Assembly: GCA_025200525.1 (NCBI GenBank)
Contig: CM045761.1
Location: 75,297,551-75,361,550, forward strand
Length of the DNA: 64,000 nucleotides
Direction: 5' to 3'
From: Camellia lanceoleosa
Lineage: Eukaryota; Streptophyta; Magnoliopsida; Ericales; Theaceae
Under the pieces are notes generated by a model that was not told the DNA's origin, made no database searches, and saw nothing but the letters and a program-made list of their open reading frames with translations. A program made the translations under genes and the position numbers. Positions within the stretch are counted from its first letter, which is position 1, and each line of letters begins with the position of its first letter. Of the stretch, positions 19,373-49,431 are shown piece after piece.

Positions 19373-22114
19373 ATAGCAGATGAGATTCCACACAACGGAG
19401 CTCCTCTAGAGGTTCTGCCTACATTTTCACCCGTTCCCGAGGTAGAGGAGCGGGTAGTGGTCGAGGCTGGCGAGGCATCTCAGGGCATTGAGGCCGACCT
19501 CGAGGCTGAGTTTGAGCCCGAGTTTAAGCCAGAGCCATTACCATTGAGAGTGCAGCATTTTGATCCGATGAGATATCATCCCTGCACACACATCTTGCCA
19601 CCTGGAGGCATTAGGCGCTTCAGGAACTTTGCTCGCAGCGTACTAGAAGACCTCCTGATGAGGGATCCGGCCTCCCACCTTTCATCCAACACTACTGAGG
19701 TATGAACTATGTTTTCATGCATTCCTACCTTTCTTTAATTACATTTCTTGCACTGCACTGCCTTTCATTTGATTCTACTTTTTCATCACTACCTGATCTA
19801 ATTCATTTGTTCTTTGCCACAGGGAGAGTCCCGTGCTTATAGGGGGTACGAAGCTACGACAGCAAGGAATTGGTATGACGAGCTCCCTGCTAGAGTCCAT
19901 GACATTGTTGATGAGACCGGCTTCAGCCTTTTCTACTCTGGCCTAACACGGGTCATTGCGAGTCGTCCTCCTTTAGGAGCGCTTGTGGAGAGATGGTAGG
20001 ACACCACGAACTCCTTCCACTTATCTACTACCAGGGAGATGACGATGACTCCCTACGACTTTGCCATGATCATAGGCTTAGGAGTAGGGGGTGATCTGAT
20101 CCCCTTTCACACCGATATGGGGGAGTGGGAAGTGGCCTAGATCAACTTGTTGGAAGCACGCCAACCCTTGTACCAGCCAGCTATGGTCAGATACAATTAG
20201 TTTGTCGAGTAGTTTTGAGGGAGTGAGCCTGAGACGTTAGAGGAGATGGAGCAGTATGCCCGAGGCTTCCTGATGTTTGTCCTCGGTACCACCTTGTTTT
20301 TGAACAGGTAGAACATCGTGGGCTTATATCTGTTGAGTGCCTTGGTGACCTTTCCCCGGGTACACTTCTACGACTAGAGCGGAGCTGGCCTCGCCACCCT
20401 GTACGGCTACAGCTGAGGGGAGAGCGGATCAGAGGCTACTGGCGAGCCTGGGAGGTATGCATTTTGGTTTCCCCCCTTTGCACTTTACATTTTCTGTTTT
20501 ACATTTTCTGCTTTATATCTATTCAACACTTGTGCGTTCTGCTTTGCACTTTCTACATCTGTTCATATCCTGTGCTTTCTGCTTTGCACTTTCTATATCT
20601 ATTCGTGCTCTGTTGATCACACATCACTGCACTTTCCTTGCAGCTATGGTTTTATGCATATTTTCTAGCCCTCGCCCCAGAGCCCATGGAGGAGCTTCCC
20701 CCGATGGTTCCCTACTCGAGGCGATATGATGGCCTATGCTAGTGATGGAGTCGCAAGTCGTTCGCTTTCTTCCGCTACTACTTTAATATTGTGGCCGCCC
20801 GCGAGGTAACCCGAAATGTAGTCATTTCTTCTTTACAACTATTCTAATTCACATTTTAGCAGCTGATGGCAACTAACAATTTGTACACTCTCTGTTTGCA
20901 GATCATGTAGCAGCCCTAGGCCATGATGCTAGCCGGGGTAAGGGACCAGTACACAGGTGCGTGGGCCACATCACGCTTTCAAATCCTACTGGAGGGACCA
21001 GTCTGCCGGACCTAGTTCTTGAGCAAGAGATTCGTTCACCAGACCATGGGCTTGCTAGATCTGGTTGTTCCGATGCCACCCCCGGAGTCTATGAGGTCAG
21101 CAAACAGCCTATCCGTTGATGTAGTTAGTCAGTTCATTTTGGGCTTGGACTCTGATTTCTTTAGAGGTGAGGCTGACTATGTGACCTTTATTCACACCTA
21201 CCCCATGCCACCTCTGACAGGCGCTCATGGAGGCGAGGGAGCGAGGGCTCCTGCGGCATGTGAGGTGGTTCAAGTGACTAGGGCCCATGCTAGAGGGGCT
21301 CTCCCTGTGGAGCAGACTATCTGCTGGCCAGAGCTTTCCACTGCTATCACATCTTAGAGGCTGACCAGGACTGCTTATCAAATCGCGATTAAGCCTGTAG
21401 AGGCTGGGCTCAAGCTTGTCAAAGTTCGAGGCTCGACACAGGTATGGACCACACTTTACCATTTGTACCCCACATTTCATTTCAGATACGTTTATTATAG
21501 ACATTGATCATCTAAATGCATTTGCAGGCATCCATAGAATACACAAGGAGCTGTCTCGAGTTGGTGGCCTCCTTGATGGGCATGGTGCAGAGGAGGGAGA
21601 CGCTGCTTGGTCTTCATGGTATCCAAGTAATTTTCTTCAGTTTGCGCTTCATGCTATCATCTTTCCACTGATACACTGGCATTTCAACTATGGTCTTTCC
21701 CAAACTGCACTGATACACTGCATTGGCACATTGCATTCACAAACTGTACTCATACTGTATCTGATTTATGTATACCACTTATTCTGCATACTATGCTTGT
21801 ATCTGATACACACACTGTAACTGATATGTTGACAACTATTTTTTTTTAGATTCCATCTGCACCAACGGTAGCAATAACACTAGCACTGGCAGTACCTTGT
21901 CCAGTAACAAGGAGTAGAGGCAGAGATAGGGGCACCCGAGACCAGAGTAGTCATTCAGAGCCCATCTTAAGCGATGATGATGCTGAGACTAGTGACTCGA
22001 AGGTGGCAGCGAGTTGGCATTATGATTTATCCGAGAGCGGAGACAATAATACTAGTTGGGGCTCTGAGAGCAGAAGGGTTGTCGAGGCGGGCTCTGAGGC
22101 AGAGAGCAGAGATG
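19373..22114 (+). pseudogene. PMD (plant mobile domain) gene of element E, split by element D
   Basis: Six exons can be traced with GT/AG borders: 19373-19699, 19823-20455, 20644-20805, 20902-21441, 21528-21626, and 21850 onward. The last is cut at 22114 by D and resumes at 62184. Exon 2 carries the PMD core, including an ERWW-D-TNSFH block, MTMTPYDFAM and the ARGFLMF-GTTLF segment. PMD proteins are plant-specific and linked to gene silencing, and many copies travel in transposons. The gene lies antisense to E. The start codon is ATA where D has ATG. Several in-frame TAG codons replace tryptophan or glutamine codons, so it is dead. The older label aminotransferase-like is not supported by any catalytic residue. 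Confidence 0.88.
22110..22114. repeat. left target-site duplication of element D (AGATG)
   Basis: AGATG stands immediately left of D's LTR terminus (TGTAGACTCG at 22115). The same five bases stand immediately right of D's other terminus at 62179-62183. Confidence 0.93.
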
Positions 22115-22158
22115 TGTAGACTCGACTTTCTTCGTGTGCCCCCTTTCGGAGAGGTGTG
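22115..22158 (-). repeat. terminal 44 bp of D's 3' LTR, cut off by element B
   Basis: The plus-strand sequence TGTAGACTCGACTTTC followed by CCCCCTTTCGGAGAGG matches the end of D's 5' LTR at 58467-58510. It is continuous in homology with 38204 onward once B is removed. The last five bases, GTGTG, are B's left target duplication. Confidence 0.9.
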
Positions 22159-25100
22159 TGTAGACACCCCATTTTTGACCGTCCTCAAGACTTGGACGTC
22201 ACCGCTTGAACACTTGGTGATTATCCATGTTCGTGTTTGTTTGGAGTTCCCGGAGTTCTCGGCTACGCGCCTTGCCTCAGGACCCCCGAACTTGACCGTT
22301 TTGTGTCTGGTTTTGCACCAAACACTTTTGTTTTGCCTTGGAGGGGCAGGGAATGTCTTGTGAGGCATCCCCACACACCATCGGCAGTGGCTAGAGGCCA
22401 CCGGCTGGTTGGTGTTGCCACCGGCACTATATTGTGCCGGTCGGCACTCTTTTGTGCCGGTCGGCAGTCAATTTTGTCAAAATGACAATTTTGCCTTACC
22501 GACTACTGTTCAGTTGCTTTTTGAGATATTTTGAAGCAGCTGTATAGCATTTGTTTCCCCTCCATACACGTGTATGGAGGGATGAGCCTTTGTTTTGCTT
22601 AGCTTGTAAGCTTTGTTGCCTATAAGAGAAGGCTCTCTTCTCTTGGCTCAAAGGTTGGAAGAATTAGACATTTTTAGAGAGAAAAGACAGAGAAGAAGCT
22701 CTGGTTCTAGGTTAGAAGTTTTGTATCTATCCTATCTCTCTTCTTCCCTCTTATTTGTACACTAGGTGTTTGTGACTTACTATTGCTCATCAACACCTAG
22801 TGTTTCACCTTCCTTGGCAACTGAGGTTCCAAGAGGTTGTCTTGGAGGTTTTTGGCTGGATTTGAGCTCAAGGAAGCAACAACATCAACTCTTGTGAAGG
22901 TGGTCAACAAGGGTGAGAAATTCCCCCTTTTTACCCCATTTTTGCACTCCATTTTTGCATAGCTTAGAACTGTTTTTGTGCTTAGTGATTAACACATAAA
23001 AGTTCTATTTTTTAGTCCTCTTTATTGTCTATTAAGAGTGTTTTGTGCTTTGGGGAGGTTTGACCACCCTTAGGCCTTGAAAAGGCCTCATTTTGTGCTA
23101 TTTTGTTGAGATCCGGGATTTTGGTGTTTGGGTCTCTTCACCACTGAAATCTTGAGGGATTTCAGTGGTGAAGATGATGCCTTAAAGTCCTAAGAAGGAG
23201 GGGTCACCCCTTCCTTGATGTCCTTGAAAAGGGCAAGTTTTGCCTCTTGAGAGCATTGTGCTTGAGTGTGTGTTGAGCATGTATGGACTGTTATTCATGC
23301 TTAGGATATCATGATTTAACATTGCTATGTGTTGGTTTTGGTCCCTTATGCATGCTTAGCATAGTTGCCATGTAATGCCTTGTATTGCCTTAACATGCCT
23401 TAGGTTGTTAGCCCTAATTTGAGCATGCTTTAGGCTTAGATTTGTGAATGTTTTGTGCTTATTTTGACATGTTTTAGCTCTGTCCATAGTCATTTGGGTT
23501 GATCTTGGCATGCATTATATAGCCCCTTTGCATTTTAGGCTTGCTAGCCTTTGAGCATGCATGTGTAGCATGTGTTGCTTACTTCATTTTGATGGTTTGG
23601 AATCATCTAGCATGTCATTTCAGTCCCTTTGGTGTGCTTATATGCTTGCCTTAGTTGCCTCTTTAATGCTTTAAAAGCATGTATTGAATGCTCCATGTTT
23701 TGGTCATTGTGCATGCCTTTGGTTTCAAGCCTCTTAGATGCCATCTAAATAGCCTTTTGGCTTTGTTTTAACATGCTAAAAACCTGTTTTTAGTTGTTTA
23801 ATGCATGCCATAATTGTCTTGCATAAGTATAGTTCAATGCCTCATTGACTTGCTTTAAGTTTTGGACCATTTGCATGCTTTGTTTGGTCTATTTTGAGTT
23901 GGTTTAGCACCACACTTTGACATGATTTTAGAGCTCATGTTGCATGCTAATCATCCATGTTATCTCCTTTCAAGTGTGCTTGAGAGTGGTTTGTTTAATG
24001 CCTAAGTTGTATGCCTTAACATGTGTACATGTGCATGTGTGTTTAGCCCTCATACTTAGCATTTTGGCTACTGATTTTGGGCTCATTTGGAATGGCCTAA
24101 GTCATGTTTGAGTTCACCCCATTGTTAGATTTGTATGATTACCTTGCATATGTGTTTGCATACTAGCATCCTCGCTTGAATTGCCATGTTACATGCCTAG
24201 TTAACATGCTTAGGGTTGCATTGCATTGGCATGCATGCTAGGCCTCTTGAGATAAACATGATAGAGGTTTGGCACCCTTGTTTGTTTATATGGTTTGCAT
24301 GCATTTGAAATTGAAATTGCACACTTGATCCTTTGGGCCATCATGCATGGGAATGCGTGATTGGTGGCCCGAGAATCGAGGCACATGCCCCTTTCAGTCA
24401 CAAATATGATAAGGGGCATGATTAGTGCATACATTGTTGGAATTACATTGCCATGCAAGTTTTGCCCTCTCTTCTTTGTGAGTTGCGGAGTTCTGAGACA
24501 TTGATGCCGGCGGCGATATTTAGTGCCGACCGATCTATTGATAGCCGATGAGTTCATTTTGTGCGGTGGCCACATATAGCGGCCGGTGGATGTTACATTT
24601 AGCGGTGGTGATCCCGGCATCCAAGGAAGATTACGAGACTCTGGCGATCTGAGGTGCAAAGTAGGAAAACAGAGGCAATCTAGGCATGGCAATTGCAATT
24701 AAGCGGCATCCAAGCGCGTGCATTGAGCCCCGCCCAAGGCGGTTCTTTATTTTCCTTAGATTAATTAATTTGTTAATTTAATTAATTTGTAATATTTAAT
24801 TAGCTTGCGTAGTTAATTATTTGTATTATTCTTTTGGTCCCTCCGAGTGAGGGCATAATTGTAATAAGTGTGCGTGGGTGTGTGCATGTCTTCCAACCCC
24901 CATTTCTTTCTTCCCTTTTATTTACCTGCTTTTGATGGTAGATTAGGGCACGTTTATTTTAGCATACCTTATGCAATGCATGCGTGCATCCATGCATTTG
25001 TTGACATGCATCGCGCTTGGTACATCATACAAACTGCATTGTATTTTCAATTCCAAATTGAATACGTGCATCGAATAAAGTGCATTTCACATGCCATCTT

Positions 25101-25882
25101 TAGGGTTAGCCGAGCCTACTCTAAATTGCATCTTCGCCTGTGTTGCATTAGCCATTTAACATGAACTAGGTCATGCATGTTTGCTAACTAGTTTCTTGTT
25201 TTTGGCATGGAGTACGATGTAAGTATTTATGCTTTAGCATATCGCATGCGTGTGAATGTTGGCATGACAGTATGACTACCATGTGGCTAAATGCTTATAT
25301 GAGATAAACTACCTGAATGCCTGTGGGTGGAGGTTGGATTACTTGAGTTGGAAAAGCTCATTGAAATCCGTATTTTAGCCTACTTGCGAGTAGTAAATTC
25401 CAAAGCATTTTCAAAACCAACGGATATGCAATGCTTATTTCCAAATTAGGCAATCTAGTCTATACTTGTTTGCTGTGCGCATAACATAGTAATTCTAGGC
25501 TAATAACCGGAATAAGAACGCATAAAGTTTTCAAAATTGGATATCATGGTTAGTAGAGGCCGGTCTTCGGATCGGGCGAAAGGGGGTGCTCATAGCTGAC
25601 CTTCCCCGATCGTACCCAAGCTCCCAAGCCAAGACCACTTTGGTGATGACGGACATGTGGCCTTCGGCACCGAGTCAGGGTTTCCTAAATTTCCCATTTT
25701 AAATATTTAGGTGGCGACTCTGTAATCTGGCAAAGCAGTCCATGTTTGGCACTACTTTTCAAAAAAAATCTGTTTTCTCAAACGATTTGCCAGAGTTGGA
25801 CTCTTTGGTTCAGATTGAGAACCGTAACAAACAAAAAGGGGAGTCCGAACTGTAGCATGAGGTCCCCCGCGAACGTGTTATA
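22159..25882 (+). repeat. 5' LTR of element B
   Basis: The LTR is 3724 bp, from TGTAGACACC to GTGTTATA (the 3' LTR has GTGTTACA, so the last CA is mutated here). A TATA-like TATAAGAG lies at 22621-22628. The middle is rich in GCATGC-type words, and the part around 24765-24830 is AT-rich. No coding frame is supported; a 162-codon minus-strand frame at 24210 is chance. A cluster of CCGGC-type words lies near 22395-22470. Confidence 0.93.
22621..22628 (+). promoter_or_regulatory. putative TATA box of B's 5' LTR
   Basis: TATAAGAG lies about 460 bp into the LTR, ahead of a CTCTTCTCTTGG stretch. It falls inside the segment that is missing from the 3' LTR, so the 3' LTR has no copy of this promoter. 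Confidence 0.5.
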
Positions 25883-25887
25883 GTTTC

Positions 25888-25905
25888 TGGCGACTCTGCT
25901 GGGGA
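25888..25905 (+). promoter_or_regulatory. primer binding site of element B
   Basis: TGGCGACTCTGCTGGGGA starts five bases after the LTR end. Its complement fits the 3' end of a plant tRNA-Arg including CCA with few mismatches, as is usual for Ogre-like elements. D has TGGCGACTCCGTTGGGGA at the equivalent place. Confidence 0.85.
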
Positions 25906-26589
25906 TTTTAGAGAGCTCGACTCGAACTCATGATATCCTGTTTTGACTACACTTATGTGTTTCTTTGCATTGCATATGCATTGGTGCGCCTAGGACACCG
26001 TGTTGGCCATCTGCTATTCCTGAGCGGTTTGTTGGAGGCTTGTCTTGTCAAGGCATGACTATAAAATTTGATTGCCGGGCTCTGCCAAGATGTGGGAACA
26101 CAAACCCCGGTTTTACCGGGGCACCCTTTTTGACCATTCGACCTAGTGCATATTCGGATCCATAGTGACCATTCCAAACTAGGACAGGTTGCTTACCCGA
26201 TGTTAGGTTGTTTGAAACCGCTGTGTGCGTAGTGAAACCCTAGCTCCTGACAAAATAGGACAGGGAAACCCTACCCCAACATAGGGGTGTATTGGCTCTC
26301 TTTTACCTGTTATGTGCTTTTAGAGTATATCTCTGCAGGGAACGCATATATCAGTTTGCAAGTTTGGGTATCCGGCCTGAGGGCACCAGTATCAGTGTTG
26401 TTGAGAATCAGCTGTGTCTGCGGGTGTTAGTTCAATTTTGAATAGTTATTCTGGGGAACAGTGTTCAGTAGTAGAGTGCAGTTGTCCGGCTACATCCGTG
26501 TTTGATCTATTTGGGGCTGAAATACTGCTTTGTTTTCCGTTTCAGTTCAGAGATTCAGAGGGTTGATCCAGGATAGCTAGTGTCTCAGC
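25906..26589 (+). other. leader of element B
   Basis: This non-coding leader contains two stretches, around 25960-26200 and 26180-26290, that match the leaders of D (57970-58440) and F in inverted orientation. No uninterrupted frame leads from here into gag. Confidence 0.7.
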
Positions 26590-28600: not shown

Positions 28601-29690
28601 TGGCATGGGTTGCTACACTTTTACCCTTTGAGAGGCTCGCTGGGCCGAAAACCCGGAAAGGCGGCCCAGGCAAAAGTTAGAGCAAAGAAAAAGAAAGCAA
28701 AAGAAAAAAATAAAATAAATACAAAAAGAAGCAAAAAAGGAAAAGAAAAGAATAAAGAATAGCAAAAGAAAAGAAAAACAAAAACATAGCTCGCAAGGTC
28801 GAAAACCTGCAACAGGCGCCTTGGCAAAAGTTAGAGCCTAAACGGTGAAGGTTAAAATACCCGAGTGTACCTTAACCGGAACTACGTAAGGCTTGATTCC
28901 CATGTTTGGGATATGTAGGCAACTTCATTTTGAAGTCCAGCCCCCAACGCTTCCATAGCGTCTTAGTCCATGTCGTGGTTTTGATCACTTTTTGCCTCCT
29001 CCGAATCCAATATCTTGATTACAGTAACCTGGAATTACGTGACCAACTTCATCTTGAAATCCAAACCACCAACACCTTCCAGGTGACTGTGTCCATATAT
29101 TGATTCAAACCGTCTTCGCCTCCTCCGCGCCCGAGGGTCCGATCGTCATCAGCGAGGACTGGCTCACAAAAATGCCGCGGCATCATCCAAACAAGGGGCA
29201 ACTTTCCGTTGCCATGCGTTGCCATAAGTTGCCCTGAGTTGCTGTCCAAACCAGGGGCAACTTTCCGTTGCCTTACCCCCCCTTGAGCCAGGGGCAATTT
29301 TCCATCGTCTCCGATCCGAGGTTGTATATCTCGAGGGTAAGTTCCGTGCTCGTTTGAGCATTGACTGTTTACAAAAATAGTTTTTGAAAATTTTCACTGA
29401 GGTTGACTTATTTTCTCGAAAACTGTTTCATTTTCAAAATTGGACCATGTTTGCACCCAAAAAGGAGAATTTTCAGTGCTCACAGCCTGACTTGCATGAT
29501 TTTCAAATCAAAAATTGAATAAGTGTGTTAATCCAACTCTTATTTTTTATCAAAGCTATTTTAGGAAGAAAACAAAAAAAATGGTCAAAGTGACGAACTA
29601 GGGGCACAGTTGAGTCAGGTCTTCTGTCCTTCCCCTGCCAACACACTTGCCCGAGAGGCACCCTATCTACCAGAAGAACTGGCTGCGAGC
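28601..29690 (+). other. post-integrase region of B, homologous to D
   Basis: The stretch GAGAGGCTCGCTGGGCCGAA and the following words match D's 50040-50085 in inverted orientation. GGGATATGTAGGCAACTTC at about 28907 matches the complement of D near 49875. The word GGGGCAACTTTCCGTTGCC is repeated two or three times near 29195-29310. There is no coding frame. Confidence 0.6.
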
Positions 29691-29890
29691 TAGCTGTATC
29701 GGGCATGAACCCGCAACCTCTCATTTATCCGACAACCATGCCTGGGGAGGGATTGAAAAATGAGAGAATAAAGAATAGAGAGGAGTAAGTTGAGAGAAAA
29801 GTAAGGAGAAGGGTTTTGTGAGAAAAACCGAGCTTGAGGGCCGAGTGATGTGAGTATCGCAAATCGGAAAGGGTGGGCATAATACCCGGA
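29690..29890 (-). pseudogene. remnant of the DUF7745-like gene in B
   Basis: On the minus strand a pyrimidine-rich segment, with CTTTTCTCTCAAC and a CCCTCCCCAG acceptor at about 29742, matches the single intron of the DUF7745-like gene in D (48776-48918) and its 3' splice site. The exon sequence on either side is largely unrecognisable, so this gene is essentially lost from B while its PMD neighbour remains. Confidence 0.5.
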
Positions 29891-30989
29891 GGAACTTGCT
29901 CCTCGAGATCTGAGGTCTTTGTAAACACGTCCGTGTGTCGTGTCTTCTGATTTGTCGGTCTTGCTTTTGGCTTCGAGTCTTTTCCGAGCATGTCTCGTTA
30001 TGTCAGGTCGTGTGCCTTTGTTTCTTTGTTTGAGTCTGTCTCGCCGTGTCCTGTGGTAGGCTCAATACCCCGGTCGTGAAACCCTTCCTTACTTCGAAAA
30101 GATCGTTTGTGCTCTGAATGCTGTGCCATTCTCTACATTCGTGTGAGGCAGGAGAAGGAAAGGGATGATTTGGGACATCCGGATGTGTTTCAACTATAAC
30201 TGTTTCTGCTTTCCTGGTCCGTCTTGTCAGATTGGGTTGTTGGTTCAGAATTTGTTGTATGCCGAATGGGCCGAATGCTGCGTTCCGGGTTGCGTACAGA
30301 TCAATCCCCAGCAGATTAGTCCCCAGCAGAGTATGGGCTGTGTATCCAGTTTTGAGCAGTGGTTCGTATGTGTTGTGTTGCTGTTTAGTTGGTTGGTTAT
30401 CTGATTATTACAGTGCAAGTGTTCAATTGTCAGACAACAAATCATTTTCATTTACATTTGAGGTGTAACATGATGCAATGCAGTGCAAAGTATGAAATAT
30501 GCAGATATATACAAATGTAACACTTTTTCAGACAAAAAGTTTGTTCCATTTCATATCATCTCTTTCAAGTACATAGTTTTGGGAACAAAAGTCTGCCTAC
30601 GGCAGTACAAAATACTCTATCTACCAACAAAAGAGAAAAGTACAAGAAAAGAAATAAAAAAAATAGCAAAAGTCTGGGTCATCAGCATCATCAATGGCCT
30701 CGCATCGGGGGATCTGTCCTCGCTTTCTTCCTGGGCAGAAGTCCAGGGGCATCACCAGAAGTGTCACTGTCTGAGCCCGAGCCGACCTCCTCCTCGGATG
30801 ACTCCGCCCCCTCCTCAGACTCGTCGTAAATGCTGGAGCCCAGGCTGTTGCTCGGCGTGTCGCCCTCCTCAGTGCGAGAATATCACGCCATCCCGGTAGA
30901 AATGGGAGGTCAGATGGGCGCCACCACCCTGGAGGAATCGGGAAGGGAGGCTGAAAAGCACAAAAGGCAAATGCATCAGTGTACATGAA

Positions 30990-34925: not shown

Positions 34926-35497
34926 ATGAGATATGCGTGCCTCATTTTGCATTTTCATCGCATCTCGAGGTACGCGTGCCTCGTTTTGCATTTCATTTTG
35001 CATTTCCATTGCATCTCGAGGTACGCGTGCCTCGTTTTGCATTTCATTTTCCATTCAATGAGGTACGTGTGCCTCATTTTGCATTTCCATTGCATCTCAA
35101 GGTACGCGTGCCTCGTTTTGCATTTTATTTTCCATTCAATGAGGTACGTGTGCCTCATTTTGCATTTCCATCGCATCTCGAGGTACGCGTGCCTCGTTTT
35201 GCATTTCATTTTCCATTCAATGAGGTACGTGTGCCTCATTTTGCATTTCCATTGCATCTCGAGGTACGCGTGCCACGTTTTGCATTTCATTTTCCATTCA
35301 ATGAGATACATATGCCTCATTTTGCATTTCCATTGCATCTCGAGGTACGCGTGCCTCGTTTTGCATTTCATTTTCCATTCAATGAGGTACGTGTGCCTCA
35401 TTTTACATTTCATTGCATCTCGAGGTACGCGTGCTTCGTTTTTGCATTTCATTTTCCGTCTAATGAGGTATGCGTGCCTCATCTTGCATCTCATTTT
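34926..35497. repeat. 81-bp tandem array in element B
   Basis: Six to seven units of 79-82 bp each consist of two similar halves built on GGTACGTGTGCCTCATTTTGC and GGTACGCGTGCCTCGTTTTG. Because 81 is a multiple of three and the unit lacks stops, two plus-strand frames (293 and 282 codons) and one minus-strand frame (183 codons) stay open through it. Overlapping openness in several frames argues against a protein. The array sits between the PMD promoter and the polypurine tract. Confidence 0.93.
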
Positions 35498-37390: not shown

Positions 37391-38198
37391 TGTAGACACC
37401 CCATTTTTGACCGTCCTCAAGACTTGGACGTCACCGCTTGAACACTTGGTGATTATCCATGTTCGTGTTCGTTTGGAGTTCCCGAAGTTCTTGGCTACGC
37501 GCCTTGCCTCAGGACCCCCGAACTTGACCGTTTTGTGTCTGGTTTTGCACCAAACATTTGTGTTTTGCCTTGGAGGGGCAGGGAATGTCTTGTGAGGCAT
37601 CCCCACACACCACCGGCAGTGGCTAGAGGCCACCGGCTGGTTGGTGTTGCCACCGGCAATATATTGTGCCGGTCGGCACTCTTTTGTGCCGGTCGGCAGT
37701 CAATTTTGTCAAAATGACAATTTTGCCCTGCCGACTACTGTTCAGTTGCTTTTTGAGATATTTTGAAGCAGCTGTATAGCATTTGTTTGCTGTGCGCATA
37801 ACATAGTAATTCTAGGCTAATAACCGGAATAAGAACGCATAAAGTTTTCAAAATTGGATATCACGGTTAGTAGAGGCCGGTCTTCGGACCGGGCGAAAGG
37901 GGGTGCTCATAGATGACCTTCCCCGATCGTACCCAAGCTCCCGAGCCAAGACCACTTTGGTGATGACGGACATGTGGCCTTCGGCACCGAGTCAGGGTTT
38001 CCTAAATTTCCCATTTTAAATATTTAGGTGGCGACTTTGTAATCTGGCAAAGCAGTCCATGTTTGGCACTACTTTTCAAAAAAATCTGTTTTCTCAAACG
38101 ATTTGCCAGAGTTGGACTCTTTGGTTCAGATTGAGAACCGCAACAAACAAAAAGGGGAGTCCGAACTGTAGCATGAGGTCCCCCGCGGATGTGTTACA
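37391..38198 (+). repeat. 3' LTR of element B with a 2.9-kb internal deletion
   Basis: The first 398 bp and the last 410 bp match the two ends of the 5' LTR, but the equivalent of 22557-25471 is absent. The breakpoint lies at TTGTTT (37783-37788), a word present at both edges of the missing segment in the 5' LTR. The missing part contains the TATA-like box. The LTR ends GTGTTACA, followed by the GTGTG duplication. Confidence 0.93.
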
Positions 38199-41100
38199 GT
38201 GTGAATTGGTCCTATAGTTCGGACTCCTGTCACAGTTCTGAATCTAATCTCACAAAGTGCAATGTGAGACTGATAAACACCAAAAAGTCCAATCTGGCAA
38301 ATCATTTTCGAAAATGGATTTTAAATCAAATAATGCCAAAATTAGACTGCTTTGCCAGATTATAAAGTCGCCACCTAAATATTTTATTTTTGAGAAATTT
38401 AGGAAACCCTGACTCATGCCAAAGGCCACGTGTCCGTTATCACAAAAGTTGCCTCAGCTCGGAAACTTGGGTATGAGAGGGGAAGGTTGTCTCATGAGCA
38501 CCCCTGCTCGCCCGATGAAAGGATCAGCCTCTACTAAGCATGATATGTTGTTTTATAAACCTCATGTGTTCTTATTCAGTTATTAGCTAACTTTACTATG
38601 TGACGCGCACATACAAGTATAGACTAAATCGTGAGAATTGGAACAAAACAACTCATGTTTGTTTTTCAAAATGGTTTGGAAGGTGCCACTCTCAAGTGGG
38701 CTAAAACGCGGATTTGCCACCTCAAGTGGGCTTAAAAACATGATTTTGCCACTTCGCAAAGTGGGTTTGAAACTTGCATTTATTGGATTATTCCAATTCA
38801 AGCAACCAAGCCTTCATCCACAGGCATTCATGCAGTTTAGCAAGTAAGCAAATAGCCTCATGGCAAGCATGCAAAACATGGCATCACTCACACTCATGCA
38901 ACTATGCTAAAGCGTAAAACTCACTGAGTACTCCAAGCCAAAACAAAAACTAGTTAGAAACCATGCATGATCCTAACTATATAAGATGCCTAATGCAACA
39001 CATACAATAATGCAATTAATAGGCTCGGCATATGATACAATTTCATAACATGCTTTTAAACACGTATTCAAAGAAGTGTATTGAAATTGCAAAGCAGTTT
39101 GAACGACGCACCGAGCCTCGGTGCATGCAAGACAAATAAATGATGCACGCACGCGAGCATAAGATATGCAAATTGAAAATGCCCCTAAACTAACCATCGA
39201 AAGCTGTTAAGTAAAAAGGAGAAAGACGTGGGGTTGGAAGACATACACACACACACGCACGTACACTTATTACAACATTGCGCCCTCGCGAAGGAGGGTC
39301 TGAATGAATAAACTAAGCTAATCTAACCTAAGCTAACCAACTAATCTAATTAAACTAATTAGATTAATTATTACAAAACAAAATAAAGAAATAACCAAGC
39401 TAAGCTACTTGATTATTACAACACTTAACTAATTAGCAAACTAATTAATTAAATTACAAAATCATGCTAACTAAACATGTAAAGCATTAACTACACTGCC
39501 TCAGCTCTGCTTTAGAACATGGAAGATGCATGCATTCAGTTTTCGCCCCAAAAAGCCCACCGGTTTGCTCTCGAGAGGCTTTGTTTGCAGGGTTGATCCA
39601 AGAACTTTCTGCTCCACCTTACTGATTCAATGCTGAGGAATGCACCAGTGGCCTGCTGGCCATCTGCCGGCCAAAGAGAGGCACTGCCGGCCAAAGATGT
39701 AGCATTGCCAGCCATCAGTGAGCCACTATCGGCCACTGGTGTGCTAAATCACCACACTGCAATAGAGCACAAACAGAGAAAAATGGAGGGTTTTCCAAGG
39801 ATATGTTTGTACTGTGCCCTTCCTTATCATCTCAAAACATCAAAGGAGTGGAACTCTTAGATCCAAAACCACTAATCAAGCATTTTCAATACATGATGAC
39901 CAAAGATCCAAGTTGTACACTTTCAATAAATGCTTAAAAACAAGACTCTAGACCACTACCTTATCATAGATGATCAAAGGCAATGGAAACAAAGGAGATT
40001 GGCTCATTTCATCACTTTGAATATGAAATGGACCAATGTTTCTTGTGTTCAATATAACGTCAGATTGAACACATGCAATGCAAACACAACATGCTTATCT
40101 TAGTCATGTTTTACTTGATTCATTTTGTTTACGCATTTTATATTACCAATTAATCCTTTAACCGATTAAGTCCAACATGAAAGTCCTCTAATTGGAGAGG
40201 GGTCAACCAAAAGATGGTTTAAGACATGAGAGAGATCATGCCCTTGGTTAGGAGGAGCCCTCAAAAGAGGGTTAAAACCATTGAGCACAAGCTGTATCTC
40301 AAGCTTAAACACAACCTTAAGGTTAACCAACCCTCAAAACAAATGGCAAAGTGAAGAAATGAGGGAGGTTGCAAAAATTTCTGTGTTGAAATGGCATGAA
40401 AAATGGCACTAAAGCATGCAAGCAACACATGCACAACATGTTCAAAAGCCAAAAGCATTAAACTAATGAAGAGCACTACACTAGAGGCATGCAATATCAA
40501 GTTCAAATGACCAAACTAGCTCAAAATAGAGCTAAAACATGCCAAATCAGAGGCTAAAATATGCTGAGATTGAAGCATAAAAGGCAAGAAAAACATGCTC
40601 ACATGTTAGGCTACAAACAAGGCTCAAGGCACAACTCACAAAAGTAATGAAAGAGTGAAATAAGTGAGAGTGTGACAGAGCTATATACACTAAAATCACA
40701 TGCTAAATGATGCTACAACATGCAAGCAACACATGCACAACATGTTAGAGGCCTTAAAACATTAAGCTAGTGAAGGCATTTGTACTATAGCTATACAAAA
40801 CAAGGCTCATATGACCAAGATAGCTCAAAACATAGCTAAATCATGCCAAATCAGAGCCTAAAACATGCTGAGATCAAGTCACAAAAAGGTAGAAACACAT
40901 GCTCACATGCTAGGCTATCTACACTTGCAAACAAGACACAAGGAGGGGAGGCCACCCCCTCCTATTTTGGACCTCAAAACTAAGTTTTTACCACTGAAAT
41001 TCCCCTTGGAATTCAGTGGTTAAAAGGCGAAAAAAAAAAAAAGGTTGTTTTAAAAGCTTGAAAAATGGCACAACACTTAACCAAAGAAACTACAAAAAGG

Positions 41101-41435
41101 GTGAAGCACCCTTAACTCCAAAACAAACCTCAAACCACCATTTTGAACCATAAAAACAGAGATTTCAGAGGTCAAAACCAGCCTCAAAATAGCATGCAAA
41201 GATAGCCAAACAAGTATTTAAATTAAGCTAAAAATACAAGAAGTTCTACCTCTTTGAAGAGAAGATGCTATATAGGCAACAAAGGCAAGCCAAACCAAGC
41301 TAAAACCCTCTTTTAGAGCTCAAATAGGACCTCAAGAAACCTCAACACAATGGTGATCAAGTTTGATCAAGGGCTCACAAGCAAAAGTGTAGAAAATTCA
41401 AGCTTTAAGGCAAAATATTTAGAGAGAGAGGACTC

Positions 41436-41468
<33 letters not shown>

Positions 41469-41920
41469 TTTTTTTCTTCAAAATTTCTAACCCTTTGCAT
41501 GCAAGAGGAAGACTTCTATATATAGAAGATATAAAATCCTCTCAAAAAGATCCAACCATCCACGTGCAAGCAGATGCTCCAATCTGTGCAAACAGCTAGC
41601 ACAAAATATCAAAAAATATCTACTGATGCACTGATGGCCAGCCGGCCATCAGTGATGGCCGGCAGGGCACAACAATGGTTGGCAGGCCAAAGTCCATGGC
41701 CGGCAATGGCCAAAAGTGGCCGGCAGTACTCCAAAAGCAACATGCTAAAAGCACCAAAACATGGTCCAAAAATGAGATAGAACTGATGCAGGGTTTGGAA
41801 AGCTCAAACCTGTGGTGCTTCGCTACAGAGTTCGAGCGCATGACGAGCAATCAAACTTGTCATTGGAGGAACCTACAAGAACATCCAAGTCTTGAGGATA
41901 GTCAAAATGGGGTGTCTACA
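38199..41920 (-). repeat. 3' LTR of element D (main part)
   Basis: On the minus strand the LTR starts TGTAGACACCCC at 41920 and continues to the B insertion, its last 44 bp lying at 22115-22158. It matches the 5' LTR at 58467-62178. Near the start I count about 15 differences in 137 bp, so D is clearly older than B. The palindromic TATA region CTTCTATATATAGAAG lies at 41513-41528. A GA repeat lies at about 41441-41464, and CCGGC-word clusters lie at 39640-39740 and 41636-41720. There is no gene. Confidence 0.92.
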
Positions 41921-42483: not shown

Positions 42484-43470
42484 GAGGGTGGTATAAACAT
42501 CGGAGCACGTCCCAATGTTTCTAACCAAAACAGAGTGGTATAAGTGTCGGGAGACGGTCCAAACGCTTCTAACCGGAAGGGTGGTATAAACACCAGGCAC
42601 ACGTCCCAAGTGTTTCTAACCAAAGGAGTGGTATAAACGTTAGGCACACGGTCCAAACACTTCTAACTAGAGGGGAGTGGTGTAAACATCGGGCACACAT
42701 CACAAGTGTTTCTAACCAAAGGGGTGGTATAAGCGTCGAACACATATCGCAAACGATTCTAACCGGGAGGGTGGTATAAACATTAGGTACGCAACCCAAT
42801 GCTTCTAACCAATAGGGTGGTATAAGCGTCAGACACACAACCCAAACACTTCCAACCGGGGGCTGGTATAAACATTGGGCACACGTCCCAAGTGTTTCTA
42901 ACCTACGGGGTGGTATAAGCGTTGGACACACATCCCAAACACTTCTAACCGGGGGGTGGTATAGACATCGGGCACATGTCCCAAGTGTTTCTAATCAACG
43001 GGGTAGTATAAGCGTCGGATACACATCCCAAACGCTTTTAACAAGGGGGTGGTATAAACATCCGGCACACATCCCAAGTGTTTCTAACCAACAGGGTGGT
43101 ATAAGCATCGGACACACATCCCAAACGCTTCTAACCAGGGGGTGGTATAAACATCGGCACACGTCCCAAGTGTTTTTAACCAAAGGGGGTAGTGTAAACA
43201 CTCGGCGTACCCGAGTGTTTCTAACCAACAAAGGTATGGTGTAAACATCGAGCGTACCCGACTGTTTCTAACCAACAAATGTGTAGTGTAAACACCGAGC
43301 ATACCCGAGTGTTTCTAACCAACAAAGGAGTGGTGTAAACACCAGGCGTACCTGAGTGTTTCTAACCAACAAAGGTGTGGTGTAAACACCGAGCATACCC
43401 GAGTGTTTCTAACCAACAAAGGGGTGGTGTAAACACCGGGCATACTCGAGTGTTTCTAACCAACAAAGGT
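42484..43470. repeat. 21-unit tandem array in element D, 46-48 bp
   Basis: By hand I count 21 units sharing GTGGTATAAACATCGG and GTGTTTCTAACCAA. In the first 15 units two variants, one with AAACGCTTCTAACC and one with AAGTGTTTCTAACC, alternate to make a dimer of about 94 bp. The last six units are homogeneous and of one type. Minus-strand open frames of 60-120 codons across it are periodicity artefacts. Two copies of a word containing GAATGAACCGTACATACAAT follow at about 43510-43570, where B has one copy (near 37080). Confidence 0.93.
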
Positions 43471-44199
43471 GTTCAAAGGACAGAAATGATCTTACTCGGA
43501 ATTCCTCTGAATGAACCGTACATACAATAACGTCTGGTTGCACTAGCTTTGAATGAACCGTACATACAATATCGTGCCTGCACAAGAAAGAAACTCAACA
43601 GGTACAATGCAACACAAATGCATATTCCATGCAAGATGAATAGCCTTGACACAAATGTTAGAGGCATGCTTCTATGCACAATATGCAAGAAACAAAACAA
43701 AGGCATATTCTATGCAAAATAATCAATGACGCATACTCAATGCAACATACATATTCTATACAAACATGATAATGCATGTTCTATACAACAATTCAAAATG
43801 TATGCTGCATGCAACGATAAAAGCAATTCGCATTCTATGCAACGACAAAAGCATGTTTGCTAAAGACGACTCAAAAGCAACTTTTGATTTACCTCTCGGA
43901 AGAGTTGCAATATGTTAAAAAGGATACACCTTGTTCATGTTGATGAGCAATGACCATTTTGCATTGGAAATGCGATTCTGAACTTCCATGGAGACATTTT
44001 GAGTCAAACACTGAGCATACCTTGCATTTCTCGGAAACCAAGGACACAAATCAAAGAAAAAGAGGAAGAGGAAGGTTATGGAAGCCCGGGCCATCGGAGA
44101 CGAAGCCGCCACCACGAAGCCACCAATATACAAGTGTCGGCCATCGATGTGCCACTGCCAGCCATCGATGGCAGATTTGGGCAACTCGGTCCTTTCACC

Positions 44200-44572: not shown

Positions 44573-47455
44573 ATGGCAGATGATATCCCACAGGACAAGG
44601 CTATCCCTGCGCTTCCTCCAGTAGAGTTTGAGGCAGACTTTGAGGCCGAGCCAAAGGCCGAGCTGGAGCCATTACTGCCGAGCATACGCCTCTTCGATCC
44701 AACAAGGTACCACCCTGAGACTCATATAGTGCCTACTGCATGAGGCATCAAGGCCTTCACCGACTTCGCAGAGGATGTGCCAGATGACCTTCTACTGAGT
44801 GAGCCAGCGTCTCACTTGTCAGCCATTGTCGTAGAGGTACGAACACTACTTTTCTGCAGTACTACCCTAAACTGTTTGCATTTCTTACATTGTTCTGATC
44901 TGATTGCATCTCATGCATTGTCTGATCTGACTATATCTCATACATTACTACTTTATATTCAACTGTATTTCATTGCTTGATTTGATTGCAGCTCATGCAT
45001 TACTGCAGGACGGGTGCCTCTCTTTCAGAGGCTACGGTACGACGACCGATCGAGACTGGTACGGTGAGCTCCTAGTTAGGGCTCACGACATTATTGACGA
45101 GACAGGCTTCGGTCTATTTTGCTCTAGCCTGACTCGGGTCGTAGCGAGCCGTCCTCTCTTAGGAGCTTTAGTGGAGAGGTGGTGGGACACCACTAACTCC
45201 TTCCATTTCGCCACCACGGGAAAGATGACGATGACTCCTTACGCTTCGCCATGATCACCGGCTTAGTCGTAGGGGGCGATCTGATCCCTCTCGACCCTGA
45301 TATGGGAGAGTGGGAGGCAGCATGAGCCGCACTGCTTGGGGCACACCGACCAACACTCCGGTTGGGCATGGTCCAGTATAGTTGGTTCGAGGAGTAGTTC
45401 AGAGGGACTGAGCCCGAGACAGTCGAGGAGACAAAGCAGTACGCCAGGGGCTTCCTCATGTTCCTTTTCGATACCACCTTGTTTTCGAACAGGTAGAATA
45501 CTGTGGGCCTGTATCTGCTAAGCACCTTAGTAGTACTCCATCGAGTTCAGTTCTATGACTGGAGCGGAGCTAGCCTCACCACTTTATATGGATACATGAG
45601 CTCAACTTCTCGCATGTGTGGGAGCTTGATCGGTGGCTACTGGCGGGCTTGGGAGGTACACAGCTTAGTTCCCTCTTTTCTCTTTACATCTTCTTCTTAG
45701 CATTTCTTGCTTTACATTTGTTCAACACATGTACTTTCTGCTTTGCATTTTCTGTATCTGCTCATAGACTACATGCTTTCTGCCTTGCATTTTCTATATT
45801 TGCTCATACACTGTATTGATCACATTTTCCTTGCAACTATGGGTGTACGCATACTTCCCAACTCTTGCTCCAGAGCCTACAGAGGAGACTCCGATGATAG
45901 TCTCATTTTCTCGGGTATACGACGGCCAGCTCTGCCGTAGGACCCGGGAAAACTTCATGTTTTTCCGCGAGTACTTTGATGTGGTTGCGGCGCACGAGCT
46001 AACCCAAAACAAAGTTATTCTGCTTTTCAATCAACTTGATACACCCATTAATCAATTGACGGTGACTAATCATATGTTCATTTTCTTATCTTCCAAATCA
46101 CATGGCAGCCGTGGGACGCGATACCATCGGGGCTCCAATCCCAGTATGGCACAGCTAGTGTCATCACTTGCCATCATATCCTTCTCGAGGGCCCGATCAG
46201 CCGCACCTAGTTCTTGGGTGAGCATTTTGTGTGCCAGACTTTAGGACTGCCTACCCCATACGTACCGATGGCACCTCCAGTGTCCACGAGAGAAACGCAC
46301 AAACTTTCTACTGAGAAAGTGATCCAGTTCATGGTAGGGCTAGAGAAGAATTACTTCCGTGTGGAGGGCGATTATGCGACCTTCATCTAGACATATCTGA
46401 TGCCGCCTCTGATCGAAGTTCGCAAAGGTGAGGGACCGAGAGCTCCATCTGCAAGAGAGAGAGGTAGAGGGGGCAGAGCGACCAGGTCCCGTGGCAGGAG
46501 AGATTCTAGGGAGAGACAGAGAGTGAGATGGCCAGAGCTGCCTACTTCCCTGACTTGCTGGGGAAGCTCTAGGGAGACCTATCAGATTCCCATTGAGCCT
46601 GCACCAGCTGGTCACGAGCTTGTTGGAGTTCAAGGCCCGACCCCGGTATGTTCCATACTTTACATTTTGCACATTCAATTCATTTCAATTATGCTTCATA
46701 GACCACTGATCATCTCAACACATTTACAGGCATCCATTGAGTACACCGAGCAGGCTCTCGAGCTAGTGGCTTCTCTAATAGGAATGGTTCAGACAAGCAT
46801 AAACCTAATCAGTCTCTATAGGATTCTAGTAAGTTTCCTTCAGTTTGCACTTCATGCCATGAAATTCTCTACTGACAGATTAGCATGTTAACTGTAACCT
46901 GCTCCAAACTACATTAATCTAATTCATTGCATCAAAACATTGCATAGATACTCTGATCCCATACACTGTATATATGTACTGCACCCATACACTGCATCTG
47001 ATATACATCGCAACTAATGTATTCTAACAAACTGCCCTTTTTAGATCCTTTTTCAGACTCTAGCTCCACTAGATGCCCCAGCAGGAGCCGCAATAGGACC
47101 TTCAGTACCTCCTCCACCAGCAGGGGGGAGAGGGATATAGGCTCCAACATGCAGCCGAGGTAGAGCTAGGGGCATTCGCAATGAGAGTGGCCCATCAGAG
47201 CCCATTCTGGGCGATGATGATGACGAGACGACCAAGGAAGAGGATGAGGCAGTGAGTCCACGGTCAGAGTCATCTGAAGATGGAGACAACGACGCCGGCT
47301 CAGATTCTGCTAGTGGTGAGGCTGGAGAGATAGAGGAGGGCTCCAGTTCAGATTCTAATTCTAATTCAGATAGCGGTGCCAATGGTGATAGTGCTTCAGA
47401 GTCCGCTCCGCCGAGAAAGAGGAGGAAGAGGAGGAAGAGGGCCTCTCGAGCTTGA
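44573..47455 (+). pseudogene. PMD (plant mobile domain) gene of element D, antisense
   Basis: Six exons align with the E and B copies: 44573-44836, 45009-45655, 45837-45998, about 46097-46645, 46730-46828 and 47045-47455. The ATG is intact and the first codons give MADDIPQ. Exon 2 holds the PMD core (ERWWDTTNSFH, MTMTPY, ARGFLMF). The last exon encodes a Ser/Asp/Glu-rich tail followed by the basic cluster PPRKRRKRRKR, a likely nuclear localisation signal. Damage includes a TGA in exon 1, a 1-bp deletion near 45240, several TAG codons, and mutated splice sites around exon 3 (acceptor AA instead of AG, donor CT instead of GT). It lies opposite to D's gag-pol. Confidence 0.88.
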
Positions 47456-48145
47456 CGTGGCTGGCGCCAATTTAGATGCTTTTTGCTTTGTTTTCTTTTT
47501 GCTGGTAGTGTTAGCACATTGTACAGCCTTAGGCAGTTTTATTTTCTTTGTAAAACTCGTACTCTTTTTGTAAAAACAAACCATGATTGGAATGAAAACT
47601 CAGTTTTTCATCTCAAAAGTGTTGCATTTTGCATTCTGATCATTGCATAACATCGCACTGCATGAAAAAAAGATTGATCGCCCTTGTAAACTACACATTC
47701 TAAGATATTGTCTTAATCAAGTAGTGAACCAACTAACAACTGAGAAAACAAAACAACTCGATAAACAACACAAGGCCTTGACAGACTAATTAATGTAAAT
47801 ACAACTCGATAAGCAAATTGCAACAACTCAATAAACAACATAAATACAACTCAATAAACAAAACCAGATGGTTACAACTTAAATAAACATGCCTAAGCCC
47901 CAAAAGGATCAAAAACATGACCTCAAAAGATGCCAATAAAATAATATAACTGCTAAAAACAACTGAATCTTCACAAAGGAGGTCAGTGAGCATAAGAGGG
48001 AGGCTGTTGGCCATGGAGGATGGCTTGTCGGCCATTGATGAGCAGAACCTCTAAAACGTTGACACCTGGCCTCCACTCACTACCTTATCTTCTACAAAAG
48101 TTCCAGCTTCTTGGTTTCTTCATTCCAGCTCTAGTTTTGCCCCAA
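47456..48145. other. interval between the two antisense genes of D
   Basis: It contains the 3' end of the PMD transcript unit and the upstream region of the DUF7745-like gene. GTTAGCACATTGTACAGCC near 47510 is shared with E at 62350. A TTGGCCATGGAGGATGGCTT-type CCGGC-related word cluster lies at 48000-48045. TTATCTTCTACAAAAG near 48092 could be a weak TATA region. There is no third gene. Confidence 0.55.
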
Positions 48146-49431
48146 ATGGAGCCATTCTTCACCGAAAAACTCTCCAATTGGATTACAACTTGAGATGGCT
48201 CAGAAAAGCTGAACTTTCAGGGTTTCGGGATAAATGCACTATTCTCGCTGAGCCGTACTCCGCTATGTTTTCCGTTCCTCCATGCCGCAGCTAGATGTTG
48301 GAACCCGGTTACGTATGTGTTTAGCTTCAGGGGACAAGAGATATGCCCCACAATCGAAGAATTCCAAGCTTTGATCGAATCCCAGCGCGATGAGGAGATC
48401 TTGCCTCAGTCTTGTTTTGGCCACATCCAGGCTTTGGGAAGGATGTGTGGGCTTACTTTACATGATGTTTGATCTTTAGTTCGCAACAGAGAACTTGACA
48501 TTCCCAATCTCATTCACCGATTTTCTGACGCCGGTAACTGTGGCGACCGTCTTTGGCAAAGTTTTCGGCAGCATGCCCTTTGCTTGTGCATGTTGGCTCA
48601 TTTCCTACTTGCCCCTGGCTTCAGAGGGTCTAGCATTCGCCTGATAGAAGTTGCCCAAGGCTTGAAGGAGGGCAAGAGCTGCATTGGCTTGACACTAGCC
48701 GAGACTTTGATGGGCTTGGATGCTTTCCATCGTCGGGAGACGACCAGGTTCGCAGGAAGTCCACTACTCTTACAGGTAATGTTTCCCACCCTTCTCACAT
48801 GCGTTTCTTATATCACTCGGCTCTCAGGCTTTGTTTTTCTCTCAAAACCCTTTCTTACCTTTTCTCTCCACGTACACCTCTCTATTCTTTAATCTCTCTT
48901 ATTTTTCATCCTCCCCAGGTATGGCTCATGGACAGGTTGAAAGTAGTGGCCTCTTGCCATGCATATTTAGCGCGCGACTATTTCTTTCACTTGCGGCTAG
49001 TTGATTTCCCGAACGAGGGGTGGTGGTGCCAATGGATGTGCAACAAATCCACTGTTGACATTGTTTGGCATTGCCCCTGGTTTGATCTACCTGAGATAAG
49101 CTACAGCATGTCTCGCTAACCTGGCATTCAGTTGATTGGCTTGACGCACTGTGTCTTCTATTTTCCATTCCAATTCAAGTGTCAGTTTGGATAGGGCCAG
49201 ACTTGCCCAAAAGGGGGGGTAGAGTACCCAACTTCATTTCTGATCTGAGGCTCACAGCTAGCTCGGTATTCCACTGCATGGAAGACAAGAGAACTTCTGG
49301 TCCCCACTCCCAATTTCAGTTGCGCCATTTTTGGTGAATGTATAGCTTGGCTTGAAGATAAGGCACAAATCGAGCCTACTTTGGCATCTGAAGCTTCCAC
49401 AAGCTCTAGGAGGGGACGCAGGAACACCTGA
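48146..49431 (+). pseudogene. DUF7745-like gene of element D, antisense
   Basis: Two exons, 48146-48775 and 48919-49431, are joined by a 143-bp intron with GT/AG borders. Exon 1 starts MEPFFTEKLS and carries ARCWNP-TYVF and QEICPTIEEFQALIES, then IRLIEVAQGLKEGKS. Exon 2 begins VWLMDRL, contains IVWHCPWFDLPE and GLTHCVFYFPF, and ends with a basic SSRRGRRNT. This order matches plant DUF7745 proteins, which are often found in retrotransposons and whose function is unknown. A polyadenylation-like AATAAA lies near 49491. In-frame TGA codons in exon 1 and TAA and TAG codons in exon 2 make it a pseudogene. The TAA after MSR is shared with E. Confidence 0.8.

Follow-up and report, generated by a model that had tools for sequence, protein, structure and literature searches.

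The window, a stretch of 64,000 nucleotides from Camellia lanceoleosa, holds a nest of three LTR retrotransposons of the Tat type (D, E and B), members of three related families of large retrotransposons. Each carries an antisense gene, of predicted multi-intron structure, for a plant mobile domain (PMD) protein, and a DUF7745-like gene or its remains lies beside it (Table 1). The Pfam scan finds RT, RT_RNaseH, RVT_3 and rve in that order in D, all on the minus strand, and tblastn finds the same order RT-RH-aRH-INT in E, across or just outside the right edge of the window and on the strand opposite to its PMD and DUF7745-like genes. The additional RNase H between RH and INT, found in D with Pfam and in E with tblastn, places both elements in the Tat clade; they are probably Ogre-like, the pointers being an LTR length of ~3.7-3.9 kb and the PMD content only. 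In the gag region of D, another four ORFs on the minus strand have no match in the Pfam scan. B is an internally deleted element without the region from RT to INT, and it is younger than D, its two LTRs being more alike (97.6-97.7% identity over 817 columns vs 91.5%). At the junction of B and D, both LTR ends are missing.

Table 1. Coordinates of the features of D, E and B in the window
Feature	Position	Strand	Remark
E, stretches matching the LTR of D (3' LTR side of E)	14817..17821	-	sequence match
E PMD, exons 1-5 and start of tail	19373..22114	+	antisense to E; ~12 stops
E PMD, end of acidic/basic tail	62179..62296	+	...PPRKRMRRAYRA stop; severed by B+D block
E DUF7745-like exon 1	62955..63575	+	
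E DUF7745-like exon 2	63733..64000	+	continues to about window position 64239 in L029
B 5' LTR	22159..26106	+	right edge approximate
B DUF7745-like scrap	29673..29891	-	largest of those kept
B PMD acidic/basic tail	30694..30882	-	
B PMD exons 1-5	31348..34095	-	antisense to B; 2 stops, 5 frame changes within exons
B tandem array, 81 bp x 6.1	34993..35489	.	~0.9-1.4 kb upstream of PMD start
B 3' LTR	37391..38200	+	internally deleted, cut at junction with D; LTR-LTR comparison
D 3' LTR	38203..41920	-	91.5% identical to D 5' LTR
D tandem array, 47/93 bp	42486..43472	.	~1.1-2.1 kb upstream of PMD start
D PMD exon 1	44573..44836	+	
D PMD exon 2 (core)	45009..45655	+	
D PMD exon 3	45837..45998	+	
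D PMD exon 4	46097..46645	+	
D PMD exon 5	46730..46837	+	right edge approximate
D PMD exon 6	47141..47455	+	acidic stretch, then basic NLS-like tail, stop; left edge provisional
D DUF7745-like gene, two exons	48146..49431	+	
D integrase (rve)	50535..51053	-	Pfam
D additional RNase H (RVT_3)	51250..51810	-	Pfam
D RNase H of RT	51880..52479	-	Pfam
D reverse transcriptase	52582..53031	-	Pfam
D 5' LTR, as matched to 3' LTR	58511..62178	-	inner edge probably near 58245

The PMD genes were mapped with spliced Camellia proteins above the PF10536 cut-off, such as P0048 (E=1.3e-30), and the protein matches are colinear in D (+, 44573-46837), E (+, 19373-21641) and B (-, 34095-31348), in agreement with the preliminary description, which had placed an antisense PMD gene in all three elements. 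Membership of the PMD family is established through the relatives, 5 of 8 of which exceed the cut-off of 34.9 bits when scanned (107 bits for P0048); of seven single exons tried from the window copies, two score 23.7-25.6 bits and the rest give no match. The position of the gene next to pol holds for D and E, which have their own RT-INT on the other strand, but for B it follows from colinearity with D only. The end of the tail in E at 62296 stands, but the gene resumes at 62179 and not at 62184 as had been given. The acidic/basic tails, described as conserved, are seen in all three elements, and 33 of the 36 acidic-tailed PMD proteins have a basic cluster within their final 40 residues. Upstream of the gene there are blocks conserved among D, E and B; D and E are 73% identical over the ~450 bp upstream of PMD and 67% over the gene itself. 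The DUF7745-like gene that had been noticed beside PMD in D and E, with a scrap in B, is matched at 48146-49428 in D, from 62955 in E and at 29673-29891 in B, and in D and E it is on the same strand as PMD.

Layout, selection and splice sites

The arrangement of the genes recurs in other copies of the families. Among the matches listed, D included, PMD and the DUF7745-like gene are on the same strand with a gap of 659-746 bp in 4/4 co-located pairs, and the DUF7745-like gene and the integrase are on opposite strands with a gap of 1,098-1,124 bp in 8/8; as a whole, the D-like coordinate lists, with D counted each time, give near-constant gaps in 4/4, 4/4 and 8/8 co-located pairs. PMD and integrase are on opposite strands in all eight co-located pairs among the matches listed for the E family. 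In the fetched copies, PMD and the DUF7745-like gene share one strand in 9/9 and the integrase is on the opposite one in 8/9. Strand, order and spacing of the genes are fixed in the copies covered. D, E and the family copies have the arrangement of an antisense aORF-3R, between pol and the 3' LTR and opposite to gag-pol; B has no pol for such a comparison. Each scored list holds 40 of 8,738-12,685 candidates, and the 29 of 40 scored D-like integrases without a partner in these lists are not evidence of absence.

It is very improbable that the PMD genes are unrelated insertions into retroelements, for instance from PMD-bearing MULE transposons. A MULE transposase does lie near PMD in the Camellia genome, in two (L009, L016) of the three PF10536-found stretches examined with Pfam, but the order and spacing relative to the integrase are near-constant, and the PMDs found with PF10536 are distant from those of the elements (no match, or 27-57% identity over short stretches). 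The PMDs from the whole-genome PF10536 search, considered as relatives of the elements, were rejected as another group; the 20 stretches that carry them (L009-L028) have no D-type pol.

Between families, the dN/dS of PMD is 0.18 for D-E, 0.24 for D-B and 0.21 for E-B, and that of the DUF7745-like gene is 0.15-0.20 for D-E, with dS saturated at 1.2-2.6. Four of the five control frames of the same pairs (f1, f2, r0 and r1) give 0.81-1.50. By these ratios, both genes have been under purifying selection between the families. Within the D family, selection is weakly shown, since PMD reaches only 0.36-0.59 (28 pairs) and the reverse control frame r2 comes close with 0.42-0.64 (7 pairs). Splice sites of PMD, checked for 4 of the five implied introns, are kept in 65 of 80 cases over ten copies; E keeps 8/8, and B keeps 7/8 even though its introns are only 46% alike to those of D. 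The pair keeps its position and strand in two families; with the kept splice sites and the low between-family dN/dS, this implies a long-term component of the elements and not a chance insertion, as had been concluded from the window.

The DUF7745-like partner and the decay of the copies

The PF24924 cut-off of 26 bits is exceeded by all seven scanned relatives of the DUF7745-like gene (27.5-43.2 bits) and by one among 10 shorter relatives; the ORF in the window stays under it with 13.1 bits. The gene is probably a distant paralogue of PMD, judging from profile matches, in which case the unit would be a pair of related proteins. PF10536 matches four of the seven scanned proteins in colinear fashion, under its cut-off (E 1.1e-5 to 1.6e-4), and the best nine non-fused matches listed of the DUF7745-like profile to PMD proteins, each weak (E 0.11-0.65), all fall on one profile stretch, approximately positions 16-79. 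That the pair consists of two unrelated genes is somewhat unlikely; it would fit the weakness of those nine matches, the finding of a single non-fused DUF7745-like protein by the PMD profile (P0025, E 4.7e-4), and the hhalign comparison of the two profiles, whose score of 22.6 is not above the best of 30 shuffled controls (24.4). The predicted structures of the PMD and DUF7745-like proteins are poor, with mean pLDDT of 41 and 35, respectively.

All copies examined are decayed. The reading frames hold stops in 10/10 PMD and 9/9 DUF7745-like copies, and no intact copy is among them. The PMD copies of D, E and B have 5, 12 and 2 stops, counts that are approximate as some matches run into introns, and the HSP frames of B change five times within exons. 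The stops lie mostly at C-to-T-prone codons: another copy keeps CAG, CAA, CGA or TGG at 31 of 41 stop positions in PMD and 20 of 23 in the DUF7745-like gene. Shared stops appear to be mostly separate hits. An ancestral break was considered for those shared by D and E (e.g. P0048 residues 182, 206, 245 and 390) and was rejected, as the relatives of D mostly keep the sense codon. The PMD of B was probably broken before B inserted; as B moved without RT-INT and with a PMD probably already broken, its insertion did not depend on a PMD supplied in cis. In its original wording, the description of the pair as a stable cargo is not supported, given that B, the younger element, has neither RT-INT nor most of the DUF7745-like gene and that all copies examined carry stops.

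The stops in all copies examined, together with the probable break of PMD in B before insertion, would also be expected if a host PMD gene pair had been captured once and had since been a passive, decaying passenger, its low dN/dS reflecting an older history in the host. The introns have the look of ordinary gene introns, and within the D family identity to D is not higher in exons than in introns (83-86% vs 84-90%; in E 65% vs 67%). Such a passenger is nevertheless quite unlikely, because many copies in families separated by dS >1 still have the gene at the same site and on the same strand, where a passenger would be expected to be lost, and because the shared stops resemble recurrent independent hits more than an inherited break.

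Possible function and known systems

Host MAIN and MAIL1 repress transposons, and Gypsy elements carry PMD relatives. The favored reading, to which a probability of about 0.5 is given, is that the antisense unit encodes nuclear PMD-superfamily proteins that benefit the element, most probably through interference with MAIN/MAIL1-PP7L silencing. A promoter of its own would likely drive transcription of the cassette, which lies antisense to gag-pol within Tat-type (probably Ogre-like) retrotransposons, and its transcripts would be spliced and translated into these proteins. These predicted products are likely to act in the nucleus, possibly against the PMD-based silencing of the host, which the cassette may thereby alter. 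The introns would survive the RNA stage because the genomic RNA is the strand opposite to the antisense genes. An extended form of this proposal, in which the cassette encodes two PMD paralogues that jam MAIN/MAIL1-PP7L, the host turns its transcripts into phased siRNAs, and the antisense placement let introns persist over family splits, is doubtful.

The main effect of the unit could instead lie in RNA, with spliced antisense transcripts pairing, along the exons they share, with the sense genomic RNA and feeding 21-nt siRNAs that damp the element or are used by the host. Both genes lie wholly inside the span of the sense transcript, dsRNA from antisense ORFs is proposed in the portion of a review consulted (PMC7264820), and the 175 PHAS loci reported at PMD genes in the available text of a study on tea (PMC10673657) would, if they belong to such elements, fit dsRNA formation by the cassette. 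However, between-family dN/dS near 0.2 and the kept splice sites imply that protein sequence was selected, making RNA as the main effect fairly unlikely.

Extra ORFs behind pol, sense and antisense, had been called known in Tat/Ogre elements, and publications indeed describe PMD in Ogre elements as well as antisense ORFs in the Tat clade. The available text of the Ogre survey (Neumann 2019, PMC6317226) reports PMD (pfam10536) extra ORFs in 57% of the elements, which are, like those in Camellia, large members of the Tat clade with long LTRs and an aRH between RH and INT. That text names a single intron position, separating gag-protease from RT, with none in the extra ORF, and no DUF7745-like partner, unlike D and E. 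The survey took ORFs of at least 250 codons (PMC6317226), whereas the Camellia PMD is split by introns, so ORF-based surveys could miss or shorten such genes. The antisense ORFs of Retand and Grande (PMC11963269) have the position and strand of those in Camellia, and that of Grande is reported in the text at hand to be nuclear and to be driven by a promoter of its own; those of Retand are mostly Transposase_28 (TRP28) as opposed to PMD. The words 'intron', 'PMD' and 'mobile domain' are absent from the main texts, so far as available, on the Retand and Grande ORFs. The PMD-A1/A2 clades, whose PMDs occur in Gypsy elements alone (Ikeda 2017, PMC5418596), are comparable as TE-borne PMDs related to MAIN/MAIL1; the part of that source consulted says nothing of strand, introns or a partner gene. 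The literature searched yielded no report of an antisense gene pair with multiple introns. The VANC proteins of VANDAL elements, which counteract silencing, belong to a protein family other than PMD. They resemble the proposal in the idea of a TE-encoded accessory protein against silencing, and in repeats near the gene; VANDAL elements are DNA transposons, a class unlike the Camellia retroelements (PMC6419827, as far as available).

A PMD gene borne by a transposable element can thus be an intron-bearing gene, selected between families and placed antisense at near-constant spacing with a second, probably related gene. The elements provide an example of how an element copied through RNA can carry introns, by antisense placement, and the phasiRNA loci described at PMD genes of tea may derive from such elements. 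PMD proteins occur on the host side as well as on the transposon side of the contest over silencing, and the idea that those of transposable elements act as decoys of the host pathway becomes testable.

Nested elements and their antisense genes

All three nested Tat-type LTR retrotransposons of the window (D, E and B) carry a plant mobile domain (PMD, PF10536) gene antisense to gag-pol, and a second antisense gene is DUF7745-like (PF24924). In D, Pfam matches give the order reverse transcriptase (RT), RNase H (RH), additional RNase H (aRH) and integrase (INT), which is the order that Neumann 2019 (PMC6317226) gives for Ogre and Retand. No Pfam match was obtained for four ORFs in the gag region of D. 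The D LTRs are 91.5% identical over 3.7 kb and those of B 97.6-97.7% over 817 compared columns, giving ages of ~6.9 and ~1.8 My at a substitution rate of 6.5e-9 per site per year. In B, everything that would match D at ~53.17-50.09 kb (the RT-INT segment) is missing, as is most of the DUF7745-like gene, while its PMD gene is complete in extent. In E, the PMD remainder is followed by the DUF7745-like gene and then, beyond the window in fetched stretch L029, by RT-RH-aRH-INT on the opposite strand. The 3' LTR of B lacks its inner 2.9 kb, both 3' LTR ends at the B/D junction are short by ~220-270 bp, and no target site duplication joining 22158 to 62179 was seen by eye. At the left of the window, long ORFs adjoin a tandem array in GC-rich sequence; at E 0.1, Pfam gives nothing for the ORF at 2438-3259.

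Features of the nested cluster (window positions)
Feature	Position	Strand	Basis or remark
D element	~38203-62178	minus	LTR comparison
E, LTR-like stretches	14.8-17.8 kb	oriented like D	LTR match
E PMD, first part	19373-22114		inserted B+D block follows; PMD remainder from 62179
B element	22159-38200	plus	colinear with D
B/D junction	38150-38260		
Array upstream of E PMD	18119-18210		tandem repeats
Array upstream of B PMD	34993-35489		tandem repeats
Array upstream of D PMD	42486-43472		tandem repeats
Left array	948-2363		period ~51 bp
Long ORFs	2435-4463	minus	

Taken singly, the PMD exons of the window copies give weak PF10536 matches or none. The joined query, scored only among the 7,994 candidates with the most words in common, found at least 136 relatives; the 120 listed, all carrying a Camellia name (3 species), are 279-846 aa in length. 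Five of eight scanned relatives pass the PF10536 cut-off, and the long ones map colinearly onto D, E and B. Across four introns in D, E, B and seven fetched copies, GT is kept at 35/40 donors and AG at 30/40 acceptors. D keeps 5/8 sites, E 8/8 and B 7/8, although the intron sequence of B is only 46% alike to D. The C-terminus has an acidic stretch and a basic cluster in all three window copies; the basic cluster, NLS-like by appearance, recurs in 33 of 36 relatives with an acidic tail. Elsewhere in the genome, a distinct group of PMDs has a MULE transposase nearby on the same strand (L009, 4433-6085 and 8973-9992; L016, 369-2102 and 3970-4734).

The DUF7745-like ORF of E found 47 relatives and a profile 107, all of those with an organism name being Camellia; some from C. 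sinensis are named 'Aminotransferase-like plant mobile' proteins. All seven relatives scanned in one set pass the DUF7745 cut-off (27.5-43.2 bits), and PF10536 matches four of them colinearly at E 1.1e-5 to 1.6e-4 and one at 0.28, with no match in two. Among ten shorter relatives, one passes DUF7745 and four match PMD at E 0.002-0.05. The PF10536 matches suggest an old PMD paralogue; this kinship is kept at probable because profile-profile comparison was not above shuffled controls and a profile from these PMDs reached only one non-fused DUF7745-like protein. In a second species, C. sinensis, the same-strand neighbourhood is supported by two gene models (P0136 and P0181) that fuse PMD with a portion of the DUF7745-like gene; they may reflect splicing that reads through both genes or an artefact of gene prediction.

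Position and strand across copies

For D, 40 places each were scored among 8,738 (PMD), 12,051 (DUF7745) and 12,685 (INT) candidates; for E, 40 among 7,968 (PMD) and 12,496 (INT). The B family has at least 40 PMD places (40 of 8,186 candidates scored). Among scored places, D included, D-like PMD and DUF7745 share a strand in 4/4 pairs (gap 659-746 bp), and INT is opposite to PMD in 4/4 (3,075-3,165 bp) and to DUF7745 in 8/8 (1,098-1,124 bp). INT is likewise opposite and downstream of E-like PMD in 8/8, three gaps being 3,181-3,207 bp and five, which look as if insertion-bearing, 7.9-11.5 kb. Both genes share a strand in all seven PMD-anchored copies, with an opposite integrase within 6.8 kb in six and none in L030. 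The two DUF7745-anchored copies agree in both respects, and one (L037) is also among the eight DUF7745-INT pairs. Having been chosen through the accessory genes or their joint presence among scored places, these copies inform on position and strand, not on how frequent elements without the pair are. One DUF7745-INT pair (C4:74.41 Mb) probably lies in a segmental duplicate of the window. At G000:C4:74397483-74415858, integrases of D-like (95%) and E-like (96%) type lie 14.8 kb apart in inverted order, as they do in the window (14.8 kb); this probably reflects segmental duplication of the nested cluster ~0.9 Mb away rather than independent transpositions.

Decay and selection

Stops occur in every copy examined (PMD 10/10, DUF7745 9/9). 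Of the distinct stop positions, 27 of 41 in PMD and 18 of 23 in DUF7745 coincide with W, Q or R in the reference, residues that together form ~15% of it; at 31/41 and 20/23, a codon that a single C-to-T change would turn into a stop (CAG, CAA, CGA or TGG) survives in another copy. Copies with a common stop position often have different stop codons. This looks like repeated decay of copies, presumably methylated, rather than an inherited break. The B PMD has five frame changes inside exons (alignment frames) and two stops, and the two B LTRs show a single gap in 817 columns, so that the gene was probably broken before the last move of B, for which another element would have provided pol. PMD would thus not be required in cis for every insertion. 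The preliminary description called the pair a stable cargo of the family; fixed position and strand favour a long-term component over a chance insertion, whereas the losses in B, its probably pre-broken PMD and the stops in all copies examined do not support a simple stable cargo.

Between families, dN/dS for PMD is 0.18 (D-E), 0.24 (D-B) and 0.21 (E-B), and for DUF7745 0.15-0.20 (D-E), with dS saturated at 1.2-2.6. Control frames of both genes (+1, +2 and two of three reverse) give 0.81-1.50; the third reverse frame gives 0.23-0.51, ascribed to third positions in common. D-E values are 0.04 for INT and 0.11 for RH and aRH. Within the D family (28 pairs), PMD gives 0.36-0.59 and DUF7745 0.23-0.41, against 0.59-1.27 for four control frames (7 pairs per gene); the third reverse frame lies only slightly above the coding one (0.42-0.64 and 0.36-0.49). 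Likeness to D is 83-86% in exons versus 84-90% in introns of D-family copies and 65% versus 67% in E, exons exceeding introns, as expected, only in B (57% versus 46%). This parity is read as exons being rich in decay-prone sites, but it argues against selection having been strong since the D burst.

Possible role of the antisense unit

Lying between pol and the 3' LTR, the unit reads against gag-pol and ends toward the integrase. Sense introns of retrotransposons are lost at the RNA stage, and antisense introns are kept because their splice signals sit on the other strand. Earlier publications already describe PMD in Ogre elements, PMD clades confined to Gypsy elements and antisense ORFs in Tat elements; neither a multi-intron antisense gene nor pairing with a DUF7745-like gene was found in the openly available literature searched, mostly at listing level. 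Each of the three elements has a tandem array, with differing units, ~1 kb ahead of where PMD starts; VANC frequently has its binding sites within repeats (PMC6419827), and by analogy the arrays could, speculatively, be candidate binding sites.

The unit may act through RNA rather than protein, a real alternative, as in tea 175 PHAS loci have been reported at PMD genes (PMC10673657), with a putative link to these elements. On the other side, a promoter of its own and a nuclear product have been reported for the antisense gene of maize Grande (PMC7264820), and MAIN and MAIL1, PMD proteins of the host, silence transposable elements independently of DNA methylation and siRNA (PMC5418596), acting with PP7L (PMC7156037). 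These precedents favour a nuclear accessory protein that would compete with the host PMD pathway, taken as a whole the most likely reading at a probability of about 0.5. That the unit is an accessory gene is highly probable in itself; that its protein would target host silencing is a tentative and rather unlikely extension.
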